Below are positions 14,901 through 64,000 of a DNA stretch of 64,000 bases, in pieces. Numbering within the stretch: the first letter of the stretch is position 1; the number at the start of each line of letters is the position of its first letter. The notes beneath the pieces are model-generated. The model had not been told where the DNA came from. It saw nothing but the letters and a program-made list of their open reading frames with translations, and made no database searches. Where the stretch lies: positions 27,046,293 through 27,110,292 of the forward strand of contig NC_019868.2 of NCBI RefSeq assembly GCF_002234675.1, read 5' to 3'. The translations under genes and the position numbers were made by a program. The DNA comes from Oryzias latipes (taxonomy: Eukaryota > Chordata > Actinopteri > Beloniformes > Adrianichthyidae).

Positions 14901-16395
14901 AAACCCCTTAAACTCCGGGAAGTTTTGGGTTGTGGGAGAAAGTCCACTACGCTGCTTCTGGTGTATCAAGTGTAAAAAAAAAATACTCTAGAGCCCAAAG
15001 GTAGTCATGACTTGATTTGTAACTATCACTCCTTTAATTGGTTTAATTTTATTAGATTTTTTAAAATGTAAAACGTCTTTAATACTATTTAGTCAACTGT
15101 AAAATGGAAAGTGTGTAAATGTTTTAGCTTTGGTCCATAAATGTTAATTTACACACTAAATTATTGATAAAACATAAAAGTTTATGACATAATAACAAAA
15201 ATAAATCCTCAAGTTTTCCACGTTGTGTTGTTTGCTTACTTGTTCACAGATTGTGATACACCAAGCAAAGTTAATGGAGCCTTGTGTGTATTTTTTGTCA
15301 CGTTAGTGCGCACTCGCTTCAGAGGCTTTGTTAGTGGGTTTTTTTTTCTCAGAGACCGTGGATTATATGCGAGTTGAGCCAACACGCCGGGATGAGTCAC
15401 TCAGCCTTCAAGTTTGCAGAAGAGTGCGAAATGGGAAGGAGGGAGGGGAGCATTCAGGGAGGGGGGCAGCTGTTTGAAATAGTCCCGCAGTGCCTCTTGT
15501 GTTTCCTCCACACATTTGTTTCCTTGTGTACATGATCAGTGACAACACGTGGAGCTGTATTTGCTGCCTGCAGTTGTGTTGCAGGAGCCTTTTTTTAAAT
15601 AAATTAGATTTATTTTTAAGTTTAAAGATGACCACAATGTGCAAGGTGAGATGTTGGAACATTTTTTTTTGTAACAGGCTCCAGCCCTCCGATGAGTGAG
15701 GAAACTGGGAACAGAAAGCATCCCATTAGTCCTCATTAGTCTCCCAGTGTTTACCCTGACAGATCGTAGCAATCAGCGGCAATCGGCTCCGGCGCTGAGT
15801 GACAACCATTGATTAAAGCAAACAAAAGATCGTAATGGACTGGCGTGAACCTCAGCCGCTCACTTTCCTCCACACATGGACTCGCGGGACTCGGTTGGGC
15901 ACAAAAGACGCGCTGCGCTCCCCTCCTCTCCCGGGAGGTGCGCGCGTCCAAGCGCCACGAGGACTGCGCACGTGAAAGCGCGGTCGTTTTCCCGAGACGC
16001 GTTAACACAAAAACAGATGTGCGTCTTTAATTAGTGACGTTGGTGTGATTAATGCAGATGATGACTCATTCGGCTTAACCGTTGCACCTCTGGTGGACAA
16101 AAGGGTGAATTTTACCTTCAGAAGTTTGGCTTTTGGAGGCAAAATAACCCCAGCGGAACTGAGGCAGGAGGGGTAATTATGCTGAACCCATTTATGCGAC
16201 GTCTTCCATGTGTCAGCCCATAGGCACAGCAGTTCCATTGTGGAGAAACTGTCAGCCAAGCTGTGATCTGAAGACAGCAGACTGTCAAATGAGTCTGGCT
16301 TGTTTGTCAAACAGAAAATGGAGCTGCAATAAAACGATCCTGCCCCCCCTCCCCCTCTTCCTCCTCCTCCCCCTCTTCCTCTTCAGGACAGCAGC

Positions 16396-19300
16396 ATGTC
16401 TGAAAGGAAACCCGGCCAGCGGTTTCACAGCTTGAACGCTGAGCAGGTGGAGGTCCTTCATCAGGTTCTGTCGGAGGTGGTCCCAATCCACGGCCGCGGG
16501 AACTTTCCCACGCTGGAGCTGCGTCCTCGTGACATCATCATCGCCGTGCGGGCCAGGCTGCAGAGGCAGGGCATCACGGTCCGTGATGTCCGCCTGAACG
16601 GCTCCACAGCCAGCCACGTGCTTGTCAGAGACAACGGAACCAGCTACAAAGACCTGGACATCATCTTTGGAGTCGAGCTGCCCAGTCAGGAGGAGTTCCA
16701 GGTAGGACCTCTTTAAGTTTTTTGTTTTTTTTTTCTGATCTGTTGAACACAAAATTGATTTATTTCCCTGTGAAGAGAATAGTCCTTCAATTTCGTCTGT
16801 TATAGAATTAAAAGTTTATAGGGTCGGAGGTAAATCCTTCCTGCATATTTTATGCAGGTTTTATAATGAAACACTGAAAGTGTGCAAAAGTTGAGACAAC
16901 GCACGAAAGAAATGCCTTAAATAGAAATAAACATTTTAGAGTCTCACTCCGATTGTCTTAATCTACTGTAAAATCAACCCCAGTGGCTTTTTTTCTTTCT
17001 CAAAATAAAAAAAACTGGTGTCGTTTTCTATGACATAGATTCTGTAGAGTAGCAAAATTTCGCCTCTGAGCTGCAGGCGAGACTGTGGAGCAACCTCACC
17101 CCCCCCCCCCCCCCCCTTCCCCTCCCCATTGCTGAGAGCTCTCTGTTTACAGCTCTCCGCCTACCTTACACCCCCCCACAACCCCAACATAACGTCATCG
17201 GTGCAACAAAAATGGTGAGCAATATTGGAGCTATGAAATCGTACAGTTTTGAGCCAGATTTCAGCTCAGACGTGGAAAACTGCGTCTACGTCTACGTTTT
17301 TTCAAGCGCCGTTCCTTCGTCTGCTCCTGATTAATGATTTGAATAAATGATCAGGAATGCAATTCTAAGCCTAATTTTCTTTAAATATGTCCCCCATCAT
17401 CAGAAAATGTCACAAGAACATGTTTAAAACACCAAAAATATCCATATTATTGATCACAGTGGGTCTTCAATGGTTGTGAACACAACTGAAAAGCAAACGT
17501 ATTAGAAATAACGCAGACTTATTTTTGAAGCTTAAATTGATGATTCAGTTTAATACGACAATGCAAATGTGGAAAAAAGTTTAAATGCCATTTTTATAAA
17601 AAAAAAAAAAAAAATCATGTTTTATGTGACATTTAATTTTTCCCTAAATGATCTAGACAACTAAATCCATTTATACCACATCTGGAATAACAGCTATTTA
17701 TTTTATTCAGTGATATTCCCCCAAAGAACATAAATATAGATTTGAAAATAGTTTACTTTATTTAAAGGCTTCTAAAGGCCGTATTATAATAGTTAAAAAA
17801 AAAGTTCCAAAGGAGAGGCAAAAACATGAGAAATAAACAACTACCTGGTAATAATTGTTGCCATCGTCTCGACGACTTCTTGTCCCCCCAGGTAATCAAA
17901 GAGTCAGTGCTTGGCTGTCTGCTAGACTGCCTGCCTGCCGCCGTCAACAGAGAGCGGATAAGCAACGCCACCATGAAGGAGGCCTACGTCCAGAAAATGG
18001 TCAAAGTCTTCAACGAGCACGACCGCTGGAGCCTCATCTCCCTGTCCAACAACTCTGGCAAAAACCTTGAGCTCAAATTTGTGAGCGCTTTGAGGCGGCA
18101 GTTTGAGTTCAGCGTGGACTCCTTCCAGATCATTCTGGACCGTCTGCTGGAGTCCTACATGCAGCAGGACCTGCAGCACAAAATGAACGCTTTCAACTTC
18201 AGGGACCGGCCGGAAGAGGGCCAAAAGAAGGAGCCCTCCTCCGTTGTCAGTGGGGCCGCCGCTCCGGATTCAGAGACGTCCACGGGTAGAAGCGGGTCTC
18301 AAATCAGCAGGTCGCAGAAAAAAGATGACGTGCGCGAAAAGGAGTCTCAGACAGAATCCCTTCAGGCGGAACATCTTAACCAGACCAAACCCTCCACAGA
18401 CGAAAAACCATCTGCAGAACCAGAGGAAGGGTCTGAAATCCTTAAAGAAAACCTTTTGCCAGAAAAGAAACCAAAGTCTGGAGAACCCAAGCAAATGGCT
18501 CCAGAGGAACTCAAGCACAGGCTTGAGCTCGTAGACAAGACTCAATCATCGACGGTAACGGGACATTTTGAGCAAACGAGTCCCAAAGAAGGCCCCAAAC
18601 CGCCGGACGAAAATCACCAGAACTTCTCTGCCGAAAGCAAAGCGGCGATCCCCACCAAAGCGTCCGGCGAACAGAAAGAAGTAACAGGGCAGATGGGATG
18701 CACTGATATGCCCAGTAGCTCGAAGAAAATCCCCGCAGATAGTCCAAACTTTCCGGAGGAGCCTGATAGCGTAGACAAATCTGATCAAACAAAGTGTTTC
18801 AGAGAGGAGCCGAGGAGTAATGAGGCAGATAAAACCCAACACGCGTCTTCTCCAGACGATGGCGCGTCTTCACGTGCCGAGATAGAGACTCGCCTCGCAG
18901 ATGAACGGAGAATGGAAGCAGAGAGCGACGAGGAAACGGAGGGGAAAACTCCAGAGGAGACTTCAGCTTCAAAGGAAAGACAGACAGAAGACACGCAAAG
19001 CATCGACTGCACCTCCTCCACCTCTCTTCCGCATGGCATAAGTGACACAGAGGAGATCAGCAGCACCCAACACACAGATAACTCAGAGAAAAGCGCAGAG
19101 CCGCTCGACGCCGTCGCCCCTTCAGATACTCAGGATGTTTCACCCGCACCGCCTGGCCTTGTTTCTGACAAAAAAACCTCGTCTTCTCCCTCGGGTAAGG
19201 TCTCAGACAGACTGTCGCATATGGTGGTCCTCAAACACTCATCACCCAAACCCCCTCGTAGGATGTGTCGAAAGGCTCCACCCAACCCGAACCTTACTCT

Positions 19301-21068
19301 TGAAGGTGAATTCCTGGATTTGCCCATCCCAAATTCAAATCCTCATTCCACGTCTGAGGTGAACCCGAGGATTTTAGACCCTCCAGACACACCAGCAGAT
19401 GTTATCTCTCCTGAGGCTGATTCAGACATGACTCCTAATCCTTCCAATAAGCTGTCATCAAACTCTGGCCTTTCCTCACCCGCTGGTCCGGACTCTGAAA
19501 TAGTTTCCATCGCGACTCTGGATCCCACGTCTTTGTTACCTCAAGAGGCGTCCTCTTCTCCTCAGATAATCACAGGAGGTGGAGATCTTAAAGAGACACT
19601 CGACACTGCCACTGATGAGTTGAGCCATTCTTTCCCTCCAGAAATCCCCTCTGATCTTCAACAGCCGGAGCTCCTTAAGTCGTTGAGAGCATCGATTTGC
19701 CTGTTCGACCCGCTGAGCCCCAACAGTCAGGAACCTGCATGCGACCCTGACGAAGCTGAGGCTCCCGCAGAACAGACCCCAAACACAGACCTCAATCCCG
19801 CCGGTCCACAAGACATCACACCCACTTTACCTCTTTCTCCCATTTGTCTCCCCCCTCCTGTGGTTAGCCTCACCCCCTTGCCCCCCAGCCTCAGCCCTCC
19901 GCCGTGTCTGACGCCTCCGTCGCCGATGCTCAGCGCTGTAAGCCCTGCGACCAGCTTCAGCTCCCCACCTCTCAGTTTCAGCCCAGCGTCGTCCTGCCTC
20001 AGCTCGCCTCCTTACCTCACCCCCCCCATGCTCAGCCTCAGCCCCCCTCCACTCTGTCTCACCCCACCCTCCCCCTGCCTCACCCCTCCCCTCCTCTGCC
20101 TCACTCCTCCTGTGGAGTCCGAGGAGCTCACGCGTCAGCTGTCCTCAGACATGGAGCCTTTGATCCTGAACGCCGATGGAGCCGAGCAGGCCCTGCAGCC
20201 CCCTCCTCAGTTAGGAGTCCCCCTCCTGGAGGAAAAAATGGATATCACTCCAGCAGAGCCTCAGGCTGCCGAGCCCGTCTCGTTTCCAATCACCATTCCA
20301 AGCTCCACCTCACACGTCCAGCCTCGCTCTTCATCAGCAGGCCCGGCAGATCCCGCCCCTCCCAAACCCATTCAGGCGCCGGCCCCCATCACTGAGACAA
20401 GAGAGGCTCCCGAGATAACCACCGATGTTTCTGAGCAGGGCAAGGCGTCGCACATGTCTGACTCGGCCCCTGACGTGGAGGTCCTGGCAGAGAGCATGTA
20501 CGGCGACTTTGAGGCTGCCATGGACCACCTGCGCTATCGCCTGATCGCCACCAGAAATCCAGAGGAGATCCGAGGCGGCGGCTTGTTGAAGTACAGCAAC
20601 CTGTTGGTGAGAGACTACAGGCCCGCCAGCGAGACTCAGATAAAGACCCTGGAGCGCTACATGTGCTCGCGCTTTTTCATCGACTTCCCCGACGTGCAGG
20701 AGCAGCAGAGGAAGATCCTGTCCTACTTGAAGAACCACTTCATCGGCGAGGAGAGAAGCAAGTACCAGTACCTGATGACGCTGCGTCGCGTGATAGACGA
20801 CAGCACCGTGTGCCTGATGGGCCACGAGAGGCGTCAGACCCTGAACATGATCACCGTGTTGGCACTGAAGGTCCTCGGAGAGCAGAATATAATACCCAAC
20901 ACTGACCACGTGACCTGCTTTTACCAGCCCGCCCCATACCTTGCCGAGCACAGCTCTCCTTATCTAGCAGAACCCAGCTACTGCAGTTACTACATACCGC
21001 AAGGGGGGTCGACTCTACTCTACCAGCCATACCCCTTACACCTGCATCCCCAGACCGGGCTGGTCTGA
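16396..21068 (+). CDS. tent5d: TENT5 (FAM46) family non-canonical poly(A) polymerase with a giant in-frame insert
   Basis: Coding exons are 16396-16701 and 17892-21068, giving 1160 residues. The intron runs from a donor (ccag|gtagga) to an acceptor (ccccag|gtaatc) in phase 0. Exon 1 carries the nucleotidyltransferase signature: LNGS at about residues 67-70 and the catalytic pair in YKDLDIIF (Asp86, Asp88). Exon 2 begins [11 protein letters not shown] and continues with [21 protein letters not shown] and [13 protein letters not shown] to about residue 197. The family block then resumes at about 964 with [46 protein letters not shown] and [13 protein letters not shown]. The two conserved blocks add up to about 394 residues, the normal TENT5 length. 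The roughly 765 residues between them are Glu/Ser/Lys-rich and then Pro-rich. TENT5 proteins extend mRNA poly(A) tails. The paralogue (d) is chosen from HMGN and SH3BGRL neighbours and is less certain than the family. The ATG follows a splice acceptor by about 10 bases. Confidence 0.88.
16702..17891 (+). other. Intron of the TENT5 gene, containing a repeat copy
   Basis: The intron is bounded by gtagga and a polypyrimidine-cag acceptor. It contains one copy of an unclassified dispersed repeat (about 17008-17470), including an 18-base C run (17099-17116), and a long A run at about 17599-17614. It contains no exon that I can support. Confidence 0.7.
17008..17470 (+). repeat. Unclassified dispersed repeat family, copy 1
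   Basis: The words aactggtgtcgttttc, acatag, ctgcag, 'cagctctccgcc' and gtctgctcctgatt, followed by caccaaaaat and cagtgggtctt, recur in the same order at 28138-28470 and 36365-36870. They occur in reverse complement at 26670-26990 and 63225-63597. A partial copy lies at about 1795-1935. The copies are diverged and none contains an ORF. The superfamily is unknown to me. Confidence 0.65.
18182..20470 (+). other. Low-complexity insert region within the TENT5 exon
   Basis: This stretch encodes about residues 198-962. It stays open for about 2.3 kb. The first part is charged and Ser/Glu/Lys-rich (for example repeated PEE, SEKS and EETEG-like words). The last third (about 19840-20110, residues about 750-842) is a degenerate proline repeat with units such as [16 protein letters not shown] and CLTPPLLC. 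No folded domain is recognised, so it is probably disordered. It is absent from the 390-440 residue mammalian family members as I remember them. Confidence 0.75.
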
Positions 21069-22510
21069 GACCTCCAAGAAAAAACTGCACACAAAACACA
21101 CTACTGAGCATTGGTCTGACCACACGGGAGCAGCCGGAGAGCATAACGCAGGGATTACCTGCTTGGTCTATAATAGACTGTGGGGGTGGGCTTGAGTGGG
21201 TTTATTACCGCAAAACTCCCTCTGTAAGGTTCTAACGTGTAATTACCTGGGCTTTTGTGGGAAAATAACAATAAGTCTAACAATTCTTCCGATATTGTTT
21301 GGGTTGCAGAAAAACGCTTCATGCACTGCATGAGTCGTTGGGGGGGGGGGCTCTTTGGTCTCCCTTGGAAACCAACCGTTGACATTTACACACTTGCACA
21401 GACACAGACACACAAACACACTTCCAGGTTCTTAAACTCTTGTACACTTTTTTTTCTATGTTCTTACTGTGTCGTTCTCAATGGGATCGTTCAGAATGTG
21501 GACTTTGCCTGTGGTTGATATCGTGCATGGATACGTTAGGACTGTTTTTCTCACTGCCAAATACTGTGTGGAATGGATACTATGCTTCTCAAACGATTCC
21601 TTGTGACTTTGTAATTCCTCCAGAGAGAAAAAAAAAAGGGGAAACTATAGCGAGAGGAGACAAGTCTGCTCGTGTCACGCGGTATTCTCATCTCAAACAA
21701 CACGCCGCATGCACAACACATTCTACACGCACGCAACCAAACATCCAATACTGTGTGCACATGAAGTGAGACGATGCATGAGTAGCTAAATAGATCACAT
21801 CTGAAGTCGAAATAAAGCTTTTCAATGATTAGAAATTGATCTATTTTTGCAAGAATTTCCCAGATTCTAAAGACTGGTTAGTTCCTTAAGAAAAAAAAAG
21901 AAGCCAACGATAAATGCCTTTGGTGTAGACTGTATAGCATATTGTTTACAGTATACTGTGTGCAAATACAATGTATTGTTTTTCAGGTAAATTGTGTTGA
22001 AACGTAGTGCTTGGTTCCTTTCTCGCGTGGAGTCCATTCTGTAACCGTGTGACAGTATCGTATCATCTGGTGTGGATTTGATGCAGACGTTTAATTCCGT
22101 TGTTAAGGTGGTCAGATCCTTCATGCATCTTTGGGTCATCCCTGAACACGGCAGATGCAGAATCTGCGAGGGCGGGAACTCGCGTCGACTCACCTTTCGA
22201 TTCGAACCGAGAAAACGGACAACGTGTTCAGATTTAAACGCCAACGACAGCAAACTTTGACCAAAGATGATGGTTCAGTTGGGAAATCAAGTGCCTCAAT
22301 GTTGAGACATCGTCGGCATGTCTTTTATTTTCCTCTGCACTGTGGGTGTTGAATGGGGATTGGGGGGGGTAGGTCCAGGGCTGGGTGGGTTTATGTTCAG
22401 CTGTTTGACCCCTGTTACTGCTGCTCGTTTTGATGTCCTCTTTAATGTAGTCTTTTGTTGTTATTTATTCATGTACATTTTGATAAAAAAATAAAAGAGA
22501 AATAATGCAG
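21069..22510 (+). other. Probable TENT5 3' UTR with two polyadenylation signals
   Basis: After the TGA at 21066-21068 the sequence continues without another gene. AATAAA hexamers occur at 21811-21816 and 22490-22495, either of which could end the transcript. The second is preceded by T-rich sequence (tcttttgttgttatttattc) typical of a mature 3' end. Long 3' UTRs are usual for this family. Confidence 0.55.
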
Positions 22511-24780
22511 GCGCGTGAAAGAGAGAGTTTTATTTCATCCTTTCCCCGGATGCTCATCTTCCAAAACCCTCCTTCTTCCCCCAACATCCGCACAATTCCC
22601 CCCAAAAAACGACGCGCTGCACAACTCACCCATCCTTCCAGTGATTGCGCTCGGCACAGATCCACTTAAGCATGACAGTCAAATCATGCCGGGGCGCCCA
22701 GGAGAGCGAACCAAAGCTGTGAAATTCCGTCTGTGTGCGGCTCCTTCTCACAAATCACCTGTCCTTCAGATGTGAATGTACCAAGGTGACGCACAGGCTA
22801 CACGCAACATAGCAACAATGTGTAAATGTGAAGGGGAATGTGGTTGGTGAGGTGTGAAGCAGAAAGGAGAGGCGGTGGAGGGGAGGAGAGCATGTTTGTG
22901 GATGGCAACATCTATCCATGCAGAGGCGGCATCAGGTGCTCCATCTCCACCGCTGGTAATTAAGTTGCCATCAAACAATAGACGAAAATTTGCCTCTTTT
23001 TAAAAAAAAATTAATCTTTTTTATTCTGTTTTTTTCCCTCCGCCGGTGGAAGAAAGGTTGCATGCATACGTCTCATTTTGTAAGACAAAAGATGTGATCT
23101 GGTGGGGGTCTCTATCAGTCTCCGACAGACCTCTAAGGCACTGTTGTCCACTCTGGGTTTCCATAGAGACACAGACAGGGAGCACTGTGGGCGCAGAGAG
23201 CATGACAGAAGACAGGGAAGACCCACACACCAAATGAGGAGGAGTGAGACAAACGCAGAGCTCAGAGAATGGAGAGCTGGATGGAGAACAGAGAGACGGA
23301 GGGATGAGAAAATTAGAGGATGAGACAGGAGGAGGTGAGGGGACGGATAAAGCCGGGAGCAGGGGGAGTTGATGGGGAGCGCGTGGGAGGTTGTCAGGCC
23401 TTCAGTCACAGGGGAGTCACTGAGAGACGGCTGCAGTGACGGCAGCAGTGATGTCAGAGCGCCACACATGTTTACACACACACACCACATCAATTTGGCT
23501 AATGGCCTGCCCACCCATCCACCCTCGACAAATTTTTCAAAACTCACCGAGGCAAATAAGAGATCATCTCCCACACATCTGCCTCTGAAACGCTCCGGAC
23601 CCCCTATGAAATCCCAGTTCGCCCATGTTTCCTGCTTTTTTATGATCCTTTTCCAACATTGACGGGGAGATTTAAGTGGAGCATTCTGTTTGAAGTGTGA
23701 TCCCACATATAATTATGACTGCTGGCCAATTTATTTCTCCTAATCCCTTGATCATAATTCTGAAATTTAATCAAGTCTTTCTGTTCCCTCAGCGGCTTAT
23801 TTCAGATCCCGCACTTCAGGTGGAACAATTCTTCAGCTGAGCATTAGAACAGCTTCATTCATAACTTTTTTTTCCTTCTTCTTCTTTCACTACCATCCTC
23901 CTGCCCACATCCTCCGCCCTTCTCCTCACTCGTTCCCCACCAAGCAGCTCTGCTTCCTTTCCTGCTGTGACTCAGTGTTCTTTCAGCAGAGGATACATGA
24001 AGATAAATAAAAAAAATCTTGTTTTTAGCTCAAAGAAGTGGAGCGATTGCAAAGCAGTTCCCTTTGCTCGGGCTCACACGAGCACAGATGCCTCCCCCAC
24101 TGGAACCACCTCTTTATCTGCTAATTCATCCTTTAAAAGCAAAATTGTGAAAGGCAGTTGAGGAGGGTTTCAAAAATAGATCTTCATTTCTCTAGACAGA
24201 AGTCTGTGTCGTCACGACTCGGTGACATGGATGAATGATTCCTCAAAGGCAAGCTCGCCAAATGCGTACCTTACGTGGGACCGGAATCAGAAGACCTTGA
24301 GGAATCACTGCTGTCAATCAAACAAAACCCATCTTTCTTTTTTTTTGTTTCTCTCTCAGACTTTTAGGGCCTCATCTATCTCACACACAAATCCGAGCCA
24401 TCTGCCTCCCTGTTTTTCTCCAAGCTGAATTTTAGAGCTTCTGGGTCACTGAGACTTTGCTTTCGTTAAGTATGCAAACCCAATGCAGCGACATGATAGA
24501 CCCTAATGTCAGTGTGATAAAGTTTGCATAACTAGTGATCAAAAGAGCGTCCCGCTTCTAACAGAGCGAGGCACAGCTGGACATGCAGCTGGCTGGAACT
24601 TGCCTTACAAAGAAATTCACTTCCCAGAGCAGCAACAGGTGCCACTGGGAGAAACGTGTACATTATTCCGACTAGAAAAAAAGCCTTCGCACCAGAGGGC
24701 AGCTTTGCCAGATGTGAAGTCGCGACAAATGTTGCTGCACATGTTTGTGTTCCAGTAAGGTCACGGCGACTTCCATTTTG
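22511..24780. other. Intergenic stretch, possible conserved noncoding DNA
   Basis: No gene is recognised. The minus-strand open frame of 231 codons at 23011-23706 has no family similarity and no splice or start context, and is treated as chance. The segment at about 23690-23870 is non-repetitive and rich in TAAT-like homeodomain words (ataattatgac, gatcataattctg, taatcaag), so it is a candidate enhancer. Confidence 0.4.
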
Positions 24781-42550: not shown

Positions 42551-54982
<12,432 letters not shown>

Positions 54983-58651: not shown

Positions 58652-59805
58652 ATGTTGGCGGAAGGTTTTTTGACATCACTGCCCTTCAGGGAGGAGAAAC
58701 GGTTTGCCTCCAAGCAGAAGAGAGGTCAGACGAGCGCTCATGGCGTGAACCCGCTGACGTGTGCAGCTTCTTGCTCCAGGTCTGCGCTGCCACAGATGCT
58801 TTCAGCCGAAGCAGGTAAAGAGCCAAGGCTCTGCAACTCGACTCAAATGCTCTGACGAGGGTCAGCTTGAACTTCCTACAGTCACTTTATGAAGCAAATG
58901 GGTCCTCGAGCTGTTTGCCCTCCGTCTGAAATGCTTCCTCTTTTCTCCTACAAAGACAGCTTCTTCCTTTCAATTGGTCTCTGTTCAGGATAAAACCTGA
59001 ACTTCTTGAGGCTTTAAATAAAAATTTTGATCAAAGTGAATAGAAAAACTAACAGTTGGGCTTTGAAAACATCTTATAATCCATCTGCGTTTGTTCTTTT
59101 GTCAGTAAAAATGTATATTTCTTACATTTAGGACCAAACTTGGAAGATTTAAGCTCAGCCCAGAGACGGAGAGTGCCTCCTCAGCCACCGGGCCTCTTCA
59201 TCCCCGGGTACTCACCTGCACCAACCCCAAATCTCGTCTGCATTGAGAACTGCAGCCTCCTGGACCAGTATCCAGACCTACAGGTGGCCGATTCAGGTCG
59301 CATCTCCCACAATCCAGTGAGAGCCAACTCAAGCCAGCAGGACTCCGGCTACCCTGCGGTGAATTTTAAGCCAGAGGTCTATGCTGGTTCAGCTGTGTCC
59401 ATCCCAGACCAGGGCTATCTGGTCATGGGCGGCACTCAGAGCATCAGCCTGGACGCGAACGAACCAGGGTTGGAGCCCATGTCCAACTCCGTGCTGAACG
59501 GACTGCTGGAAAAGAAGCTGGAGGAGGTTTACATGCAGCATCTGACGGATAATTTAGCTCGATGCAACTCCCACCTGGAGAACAGCCTCCTGCACGGCCT
59601 GGTGCCCCCGCCGCAGCCCGGGTCCCAAGAACCCTACTCACTTGAGAACAGCATGGATCAAGGTCCACAAAGAGGCAGCGGTGACAAAATAAGTTATCTG
59701 AGCACCCAGAATGTTGCTCCCTCCTCACACTTCAGCTCCCCAGTGTTGAGGATTTCTGAAGCTGAAAATCCACATCTGCAGGCAAACGTCCTCCTAAAGT
59801 ATTGA
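58652..59805 (+). CDS. tasl: TASL (CXorf21)-like innate immune adaptor
   Basis: Two coding exons are proposed: 58652-58814 and 59132-59805, joined in phase 1 (AAGCAG|GTAAAG and ttacatttag|GACC), giving 278 residues; human TASL has about 301. The start MLAEGFLTSL resembles the human start MLSEGYLSGL. Central NPVR and MSNSVLNGLLEKKLEEVYMQ resemble the family's NAVLNEYLEQK region. Near the C-terminus SSPVLRIS (Ser at about residue 263) matches the pLxIS motif that recruits IRF5. TASL binds the endolysosomal transporter SLC15A4 and links TLR7/8/9 to IRF5. A weaker alternative donor (AAGAGAG|GTCAGA, about 58724) is also phase 1 and would remove 30 residues. A splice acceptor at 58493-58494 suggests an upstream noncoding exon. 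Family assignment is by motif, not by database search. Confidence 0.75.
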
Positions 59806-61268: not shown

Positions 61269-62873
61269 ATGATGGCTGCACCGCGGACTCTCTTTTGGCT
61301 CCTTTCTGGTTCTCTCCTGGGATGTGGGGGTCTGACTCCCCCTCAAGCCCACAGCCCGCCACCTTCGGCGGGCGTCAACAGCAGTCTGCATGCGGATGCT
61401 CCCACGGCTCTGCGGGTGTTCAGCGTGGACTACCACCACGTCCAGGCTCCCTTTGAAATCGTGCTGTGGATCATGCTGGCCTCCCTGGCCAAGCTGGGTA
61501 AGAGAGATGAGCCTGTTGGGTCATTCAGGGCGACAATCCAGAAACGTCTAATAAAGTCTTTTTGAATTAGGGTCTATGCATCTGTTCTAGATAAGAATGT
61601 TCTTGTAACATAACTTTAAAAATGTGTCATTCTGTTTCTATGCTGATGATATTCAGCTGTACTTCTCCTTCAATGACTCAGAACTCCACAAACTTACAAA
61701 ACTACTGGATTGCCTTGCCTGTCTGAAGTCTTGGCTCACAAGTAACAGTCTTCAGCTAAACCCACAAAAGACGGAAACACTAATAGTTTCCCCAGAAAAC
61801 ACAATCCCAATAATTTCCCAGCATCTTGGTTCTTTGAGATCCTCTGTACAACCCTGTTTCAGAAATCCTGGTGTCCGGTTTGACCAGTCAATGTCTTTGG
61901 ACCATCATTCCAGCCTTTTAAATAGAAATTGTTTTTATCATTTACGTATCGTAAGAAAACCGCAGGCCTTTTCATCTAAATCAGTCTCTGAGATGGTTAT
62001 CCATGCTTTTATTTCTTCTCGTTTATTGTAATTCTCTTTTTACTTGTTTTAATAAATCTGTTCTTAACCGTCTTCAGTTAGTTCAAAACACTGCTGCAAG
62101 GCTTTTAACAGGATCAGACAAAAGGGAACACATTACCCCCATTTTATCCTCCTTGCACTGACTCCCAATCAAGTGGCGTATTGATTTTAAAATTCTAGTT
62201 TTAACCTATAGAGCTTTAAATGGACAGACCCCAAAATACTTATCAGACTTGCTCTGTCCCTACGCTTCCGTCCGTGCCCTCCAATCCTCGGATCAAAATC
62301 TTTTAAAGATTTTTAAGACCAAGTATAAAACCAGAGGTGACTGGTCGTTCCAGGCAAGAGCTGCCGACACTGCCGATTCTTTTAAAAGTCAACTGAAGAC
62401 ACTTTTATTCAAAAATGCTTTTAGCTGACTGGTTTCATTGTTGTTTTTATTCTACGTTTATTTTTCTTCAATTTAGTTTTTGCTTTACATGATATTTAAT
62501 TAATTCTTTTTCTGCTTTTACTGTATTGTATGCTTTTTTTATTGTTCAGTGCTTTGTGATTTCATCTGTGAAAGGCGTTATATAAATAAAACTTACTTTC
62601 TTGTTCAATTCTGGTTCAGCATTAGAACCGCTAACTACTAAAAAACTATACAGTGCAGGACATATCTAGTGCCCTTAATATTAAAAGCTATTCAGACACC
62701 ATGCTCAATACCCAGCGGGGGCTGGAAGGGGGAGGGGGGGTGAGGGTGCCATCCAGTGTTTCACCCATGGCGTCAAACTAGCCAGGACCGCCTCTGGTGT
62801 TACGATTTTGTTTCGGTTCAACATGAGATTCGCGTATTAAAAAACAACAACAAAAAGCTACAAATTTAGACCC

Positions 62874-62904
<31 letters not shown>

Positions 62905-63982
62905 ATGGCTGAGTTTTAAACAGAATTTTGTGGCGCCCCATAGTACCACCCTATCCTTCATGGTCCACTCTTCTGGTCTCATGGCAGGTTTCCATTGGTC
63001 AGGTCGGGTCCCAGCCGTCGTGCCGGAGAGCTGTGTCCTCATCATGGTGGGCCTTCTTGTTGGAGGGGTCATCTACGGCGTTCGACACTCCGCTCCTCCA
63101 ACTCTGAGTGCAGACTCCTTCTTCCTCTTCCTGCTGCCGCCCATCGTCTTGGACGCAGGATACTTCCTTCCCGGGAGGCTCTTCTTTGAAAACCTCGGAA
63201 CCATCCTTTGGTTTGTTTACCTTTGATGACCCACTCCAATGAAAGTCATGTTTTTCGGTGGGCGGGGCCACAAGCTTCCTGCTCCGCTCCATTCGGATGC
63301 CTCCACTTGCACGGCTTGGATAGCTCAGATGTTGATTTTGTTGCCCCGGTAATGTTAAGTTGGGGTTGTGAGGGGCTACAAGCTAGCGGTAGAGCGTGTA
63401 AACAGAGAGCTCTCAGCAACAAGCACCCGGGGAAGGACTGTACTGTAGTCTCTCTGCGCCAACTGTCCCGCCCACAACTCAGAGGTGAATTTCTAATGAA
63501 CTCCTGCCGCTCTGCAGGACCTGTGTCCTAGAAAACAACACAGGGGTTTGCATTTTAGCTAAAAACATCATAATCCTAAGACCACTGGGAACGCTTTTAC
63601 AACAGATCAAATGGTTCATCTTGAACATGTGGTTGTTTGATTTGGCCATAAACACCAACTGTCAACTTAAGTATGCTTTAAAAGCTAAAAGAAGGAGGAT
63701 TCTAGCTTCAGTAAAGTTGACTAGCTGTCGTGCTCCTGCAGGTACGCAGTGCTGGGAACCTTCTGGAACGTGCTGGGCATCGGCCTGTCTCTGTACGGCG
63801 TTTGCCTCCTGGCGCCGTCGTCTCTGGGGGACATCTCTCTGCTCCACTGCCTGCTGTTCGGCTCCCTAATCGCCGCCGTCGACCCGGTGGCCGTGCTCTC
63901 CGTCTACCAAGAGATGCAAGTCAATGAGCAGCTGCACATCCTGGTGTTTGGGGAGTCACTGCTCAATGACGCGGTCACTGTG
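61269..63982 (+). CDS. slc9a2: Na+/H+ exchanger, Slc9a2-like, 5' part (cut by window edge)
   Basis: Three coding exons are visible: 61269-61497, 62988-63210 and 63742-63982. Splice phases are consistent (1, 2, 0). The gene continues beyond 64000. Exon 1 gives a signal-like start ([18 protein letters not shown]) and [25 protein letters not shown], a first transmembrane segment. Exon 2 has [17 protein letters not shown] and [18 protein letters not shown]. Exon 3 has [16 protein letters not shown] and [12 protein letters not shown], which contains the Glu and Asn-Asp residues of the ion-transport core. Plasma-membrane NHEs swap intracellular H+ for Na+ and regulate pH and volume. Text such as [20 protein letters not shown] and HVQAPFEI is closest to NHE2, with NHE4 next, from memory. 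A paralogue mis-assignment within NHE1-5 remains possible. Either Met at 61269 or 61272 may be the start. Confidence 0.8.
61498..62987 (+). other. Intron 1 of the Na+/H+ exchanger gene
   Basis: It is bounded by gtaaga and ggcag. It is largely occupied by a LINE 3' fragment (about 61618-62600). Near its right end is a C20 run (62871-62890) followed by an (AC)n stretch to about 62905. Confidence 0.7.
61618..62605 (+). mobile_element. 5'-truncated LINE (L2/Rex1-like) fragment
   Basis: The frame at 61624-62031 contains [16 protein letters not shown], the reverse transcriptase YADD motif, and [24 protein letters not shown], a typical following segment. A second, shifted frame carries the C-terminal [20 protein letters not shown] and LHWLP-like text. 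The 3' end (gtgaaaggcgttatataaataaaac) is an L2-like terminus. Frameshifts make it inactive. Clade assignment is tentative. Confidence 0.75.
63225..63597 (-). repeat. Unclassified dispersed repeat family, copy in exchanger intron 2
   Basis: This minus-orientation copy lies between exchanger exons 2 and 3. It shares taatgaactcctgcc, ctctgcaggacctgtgtcc, gagagctctcagca and ccactgggaacgctt with the other copies (minus orientation at 26670, plus at 17008, 28138 and 36365). Confidence 0.6.
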
Positions 63983-64000
63983 GTGAGGGCAGCACGGAGG

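Follow-up and report, generated by a model that had tools for sequence, protein, structure and literature searches.

Human and mouse TENT5D (FAM46D) are described as endoplasmic reticulum (ER)-associated, non-canonical poly(A) polymerases of 389 residues, required for male fertility (PMC13291444, PMC8901658, PMC11193744). The C-terminal region of the human protein binds FNDC3 proteins and targets the ER, and truncations imply a boundary between the nucleotidyltransferase (NTase) and helical (HD) domains at residues 209/210 (PMC13291444). The catalytic pattern of the family is given as hG[GS], [DE]h[DE]h, h[DE]h (PMC7988573). How these enzymes recognize mRNAs has been called far from understood (PMC11193744), and recent work traces paralogue specificity to non-catalytic regions; the variable disordered segments that it describes in TENT5 proteins are terminal tails, not inserts (PMC13291444). 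The present analysis concerns a TENT5 gene of medaka, Oryzias latipes, found in a 64,000-nucleotide stretch of contig NC_019868.2 (assembly GCF_002234675.1, positions 27,046,293 to 27,110,292). This stretch is referred to below as the window and the contig as C10; unless a contig is named, positions are those of the window. The predicted protein resembles the enzymes above in both of its core blocks and in its catalytic motifs, and differs from them in an in-frame insert of 768 residues between the two domains. A paralogue on a second contig, C14, is interrupted at the same point. The reading we favor, with better than even confidence and on the strength of the sequence, is that the C10 gene is a fish TENT5D co-orthologue whose product, a cytoplasmic non-canonical poly(A) polymerase that seems intact, bears a very long disordered arm at the NTase/helical junction.

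A TENT5 gene interrupted at the domain junction

The gene comprises two coding exons, both on the + strand, which join in frame to specify a protein of 1160 residues. Its features are as follows.

16396..16701, +, coding part of exon 1 (residues 1-102), with the start codon and the catalytic motifs LNGS (residue 67) and KDLDIIF (residue 85)
16702..17891, +, coding intron of 1190 bases, GC 0.36, with 23-28 stops per frame
17892..21068, +, exon 2 including the stop codon (residues 103-1160)
17892..18176, +, remainder of the NTase block, with LELKF (residue 161, catalytic base region)
18177..20480, +, in-frame insert of 768 residues (198-965), low-complexity and disorder-promoting
19242..19274, +, basic motif, residues 553-563, with a suggestive counterpart, SPKLQRKMSRK, in the C14 insert (shared pattern SPKxxR[KR]MxRK)
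19632..19661, +, motif at residues 683-692, suggestively matched on C14 by FPPIEIPKNLQ (shared pattern FPPxEIPxxLQ)
20003..20110, +, in-frame 21-bp tandem repeat, 5.2 copies, giving Pro-rich heptads of the CLTPPSP type
20481..21068, +, helical-domain block and TENT5D-like C-terminal tail

A preliminary description, made from the sequence without database searches, had called the gene a TENT5 poly(A) polymerase, and this identification is borne out. Exon 2 alone scores 367.7 bits against Pfam family NTP_transf_7 (PF07984; cut-off 27), the match falling into two stretches that flank the insert, and the gene as a whole covers the model in three pieces (positions 1-91, 90-185 and 184-321 of 321). 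In the PDB, at E values up to 0.1, exon 2 retrieved TENT5 chains only (6 distinct sequences). All motifs of the catalytic pattern are intact (see list). Membership in the TENT5 family is thus supported by sequence, enzymatic activity being predicted. The uninterrupted two-domain fold of about 390 residues, usual but not obligatory in the family, is broken by the insert.

The QQDLQ sequence at residues 193-197 forms the left flank of the insert, and the right conserved block starts at residue 966. Measured between the last clearly alignable residues, the insert spans residues 192-967 (776 residues); the figures of the preliminary description, which had put it at about 765, were right to within a few residues, as was its placement between the NTase core and the helical part, the Pfam match breaking at about position 185, the domain junction. 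In the numbering of human TENT5D, the insert replaces approximately residues 188-203 and lies just before the 209/210 boundary (see above); some 770 residues of the medaka protein stand in place of about 16 in the human one. The TENT5B and TENT5C structures 6jyj and 7cqz present the same fold, matched in two blocks, but their blocks are 13-15 residues apart, without an insert.

The donor of the coding intron ranks in the top 0.5% of GT sites of the window and its acceptor in the top 1.1% of AG sites. Since a strong acceptor-like site is found at 16387, just 5' of the coding part of exon 1, a 5' untranslated exon probably exists upstream of 16396. The coding intron falls between EEFQ and VIK; the 5A and 5B genes of this genome have theirs at other positions. 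It is absent from the C14 paralogue, pointing to intron gain or loss within TENT5D.

Coding character and origin of the insert

The insert lies wholly inside exon 2 and contains no in-frame stops, against a mean of 21.1 (minimum 8) in 1000 order-2 Markov sequences; its remaining five frames carry 17-42 stops each. A charged, Ser/Glu/Lys part is followed by a Pro/Ser/Thr-rich part. Disorder propensity, estimated on the TOP-IDP scale with approximate values, is highest in frame 0 among the six frames and exceeds that of all 1000 simulations (0/1000 reach it), while Trp, Tyr, Phe and Cys are depleted (3/1000 simulations as low). These results uphold what had been said of the open frame and of the low-complexity, disordered composition, and they support an in-frame, apparently coding insert within a single exon.

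A search of the genome (734 Mb, 25 contigs) found seven TENT5 loci. Five have short linkers (C21, C11, two on C16, C24) and two, on C10 and C14, carry a long insert. The C14 paralogue is a single exon with one open frame of 755 residues, about 379 of which form the insert. This frame, too, is free of stops, against 17.6 expected and a minimum of 6 in 1000 simulated sequences. Of the six frames, frame 0 again ranks first in disorder propensity, with a value reached by 4/1000 simulations. The match to NTP_transf_7 breaks between positions 185 and 184 on C10 and between 185 and 186 on C14, each time within one open frame. In the other five genes the match runs unbroken across Pfam position ~185; four have breaks elsewhere, at their introns. 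Because two long open inserts share one insertion point, misassembly, or a frame left open by chance, is very unlikely. The idea that foreign or low-complexity DNA was misjoined into the gene, or that the gene is a pseudogene, could draw on the fact that the insert is found only at this locus and matches no Pfam family; it is made scarcely credible by the intact frame on both sides, the intact catalytic motifs, a window free of any N, and the independent copy on another chromosome with its insert at the same position.

Neither insert matches a Pfam family at E values up to 1. Exon 2 and the C14 protein gave no match in NCBIfam, a prokaryote-minded library, nor did positions 15000-23000 in Rfam. 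Searched against its own genome as DNA and as protein, the C10 insert returned only itself (such counts being lower bounds), and its derivation from a transposon or an exonised repeat was rejected on these grounds. No relatives were found in one scan each of a genome-contig and a viral-contig collection, both without fish.

A number of results tell against the favored reading. Synonymous codon usage in the C10 insert is unlike that of the cores, frame 0 scoring no better than other frames or the Markov null (255/500 as high), and in the C14 insert it likewise lends no coding support (426/500 as high). Nor are Trp, Tyr, Phe and Cys depleted on C14 (333/1000 as low). Ser/Thr-Pro sites are not enriched on C10 (31 against 25.1 by composition, 184/2000 shuffles reaching this number) or on C14 (3 against 4.5). 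The overall alignment of the two inserts stays within the range of shuffles (score 55, null median 60). The basic-motif block, scored with BLOSUM62, is reached by 75/1000 shuffles, its significance varying with the test, and a common origin of the two arms is suggested by position and two short motifs. Prediction of exon 2 by AlphaFold2 from the single sequence gave an uninformative model with a mean pLDDT of 35.9, with 1025/1058 residues below 50, known folded parts mostly included. Lastly, the whole reading is drawn from the genome sequence of one species. The third-position GC of the insert is 0.56, compared with 0.78-0.80 in the cores; we read this and the deviant codon usage as signs of fast evolution in a low-complexity segment. 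Of the preliminary claim that the insert is selected as coding, the part concerning open frame and disorder composition stands; codon usage at chance level lends it no support, and splice-like sites inside the insert (see below) would allow partial splicing.

The main rival explanation builds on the same observations. The insert would be translated but functionless: a disordered loop, free to drift, that lengthened as repeats expanded in frame within a permissive surface linker and that stays open only since stops would destroy the enzyme. The poor alignment of the inserts, their unequal lengths (776 and 379 residues), the tandem repeat on C10, the codon usage unlike that of the cores and the short, variable linker of other TENT5s are all as expected of such a loop. 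It is harder to reconcile with inserts that are in both copies more disorder-promoting than nucleotide content predicts, with a long arm kept in both, and with two short motifs occurring in the same order on C10 and C14. The best common 11-mer, that of the basic motif, was equaled in 0/150 shuffles and the 13-mer in 2/150; the second motif, picked after the fact, is reached by 10/1000 shuffles, and the middle region of the inserts as a whole by 75/2000. AlphaFold2 hints at two short low-confidence helices flanking the motif at residues 683-692. On balance we regard a functionless loop as rather unlikely. Under the interpretation favored here, the arm would probably predate the separation of the two copies, later changing fast in length and sequence while keeping its frame and composition.

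Splice signals raise another alternative, namely that all or much of the insert is an exitron, an intron retained in frame, so that the usual mRNA would lack it and the usual arm would be short or absent. An exitron should be free of stops and have a length that is a multiple of three, as is the case here. On a scale built on approximate splice-site frequencies, the donor and acceptor of the real coding intron score 4.56 and 5.52. Donor-like sites inside the insert surpass this donor at 19195 (5.2) and 19306 (4.9), and acceptor-like sites surpass the acceptor at 19642 (6.3) and 19566 (6.2) or come near it at 20341 (5.1), which counts against the favored reading. From the positions, the spans from 19195 or 19306 to 19642 or 20341 are multiples of three bases, and part of the arm may for this reason be removed by in-frame alternative splicing, leaving shorter arms. 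Removal of the whole insert would require a donor near its start, where no usable one was seen: the best site at 18101-18500 scores -1.0, a value reached by 14% of GTs in the window, and the best around the start of the C14 insert (80 bases before to 250 after) scores 2.6. An exitron is for us an improbable account of the insert.

Relation to TENT5D and gene neighborhood

In an unrooted tree of the core (11 sequences, 341 columns), the C10 and C14 proteins form a group with human TENT5D that is set apart, at support 99, from A, B and C. The human sequence used agrees with published numbering in its length of 389 and at residues D210, E213, I289, F355, D82 and D84 (the numbering of D82/D84 in the paper being for mouse). 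The C10 protein also has a C-terminal tail resembling that of the human protein, of the QPY-PLH type. Human gene order in the region is, we assume, TBX22-TENT5D-BRWD3; a literature search found no paper naming FAM46D, BRWD3 and TBX22 together. Each medaka copy has one neighbor of one of these types. T-box exons lie at C10:27040811-27043504, about 19 kb upstream of the C10 gene, and a BRWD1/PHIP-like bromodomain gene at C14:16565798-16567398, some 9 kb downstream of the TENT5 copy there. Such a pattern fits a duplicated segment with reciprocal loss, the duplication being presumably that of the teleost genome. The closest relatives of the C10 T-box exons are on C24 and C21, which also bear TENT5A, 12 Mb from the T-box gene, and TENT5C, 0.9 Mb from it, respectively. 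Comparison of the C10 and C14 neighborhoods (83.5 and 68.2 kb) gave, among the best 60 matches, only repeat-like ones beyond TENT5.

One measure disagrees with this assignment. In raw identity, the C10 protein is closer to human TENT5C (69.9% of 322 residues) than to TENT5D (64.0% of 372), a difference that may reflect rapid change in TENT5D, bearing in mind that the tree has no outgroup. The identities, together with the partly verified human TENT5D sequence and the lack of an outgroup, leave some room for placing the pair in a vertebrate TENT5 lineage of its own that mammals have lost. Tree support, the TENT5D-like tail, the T-box and BRWD-type neighbors and the lack of any other TENT5D candidate among the seven medaka genes make a separate lineage quite improbable, slightly more so than the exitron. 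The two genes are probably fish TENT5D co-orthologues, judging from their sequences. A teleost gene annotated as Fam46d in stickleback (ENSGACG00000018558) is expressed in brain, at higher levels in group-housed fish (PMC4569571), so that stickleback, too, seems to possess and express a member of the lineage.

The pairing of TENT5 and T-box genes recurs on C21 (TENT5 at 1664839-1665792, T-box at 2507900-2522315) and likewise on C24, as if TENT5 and the T-box group, presumably that of Tbx15/18/22, had traveled together through vertebrate genome duplications. The window contains these further features.

52737-53492, -, Tc1-like transposase frame (HTH_Tnp_Tc3_2)
59134-59802, +, exon matching Pfam TASL (PF15133, 36.5 bits, cut-off 27), the single copy found in the genome, ending in a VLRIS stretch reminiscent of the pLxIS signaling motif
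~61270-64000, +, sodium/hydrogen exchanger gene (Pfam PF00999) running off the window end; best PDB relative NHE1; six further genome places match, none on C14
~61609-62425, +, fragments resembling, by eye, a non-LTR (long terminal repeat) retrotransposon reverse transcriptase, in an intron of the exchanger gene

Possible function of the arm

If the enzyme is intact, its two halves would fold together around the arm, which would loop out from a surface linker. The C-terminal region would be mainly responsible for bringing the enzyme to mRNAs, in the way that FNDC3 proteins do for human TENT5D (PMC13291444), and because the fish proteins retain a TENT5D-like tail, the expected activity would be ER-linked polyadenylation, to which the arm would add a module. 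Through short motifs and phosphorylatable sites the arm might add weak multivalent contacts, recruiting clients or tuning the inter-lobe hinge. The localization or interaction role proposed in the preliminary description would likewise be conceivable. BCCIP-alpha is admitted when the C-terminal lobe of FAM46 rotates off the N-lobe (PMC10075960), and an arm placed between the lobes might therefore influence their opening too. BCCIP-alpha itself uses a disordered loop bearing a nuclear localization signal for its localization (PMC10075960). That loop is a flexible segment beside a folded core; the medaka arm instead interrupts the enzyme and is about twice its size.

It seems conceivable, though we advance this only tentatively, that fish TENT5D is an enzyme with a built-in scaffold. 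An arm of several hundred residues would have been gained at the hinge before the copies split and would recruit partners, or gate the cleft when phosphorylated, giving fish a means of selecting mRNAs that is absent from short-linker mammals. The enzyme family is known, and the insert is not claimed as unreported. A literature search returned no title or abstract on a long TENT5, in a scope without the founding family survey (10.1093/nar/gkw222) and fish proteome databases, and predicted proteins of this length may already sit in databases.

Judging from the medaka genes, hundreds of residues may be accommodated between the lobes of the polymerase. With a huge arm between the domains as the chief difference from the mammalian enzyme, this natural pair of TENT5D genes would offer a clean test of the arm's role.

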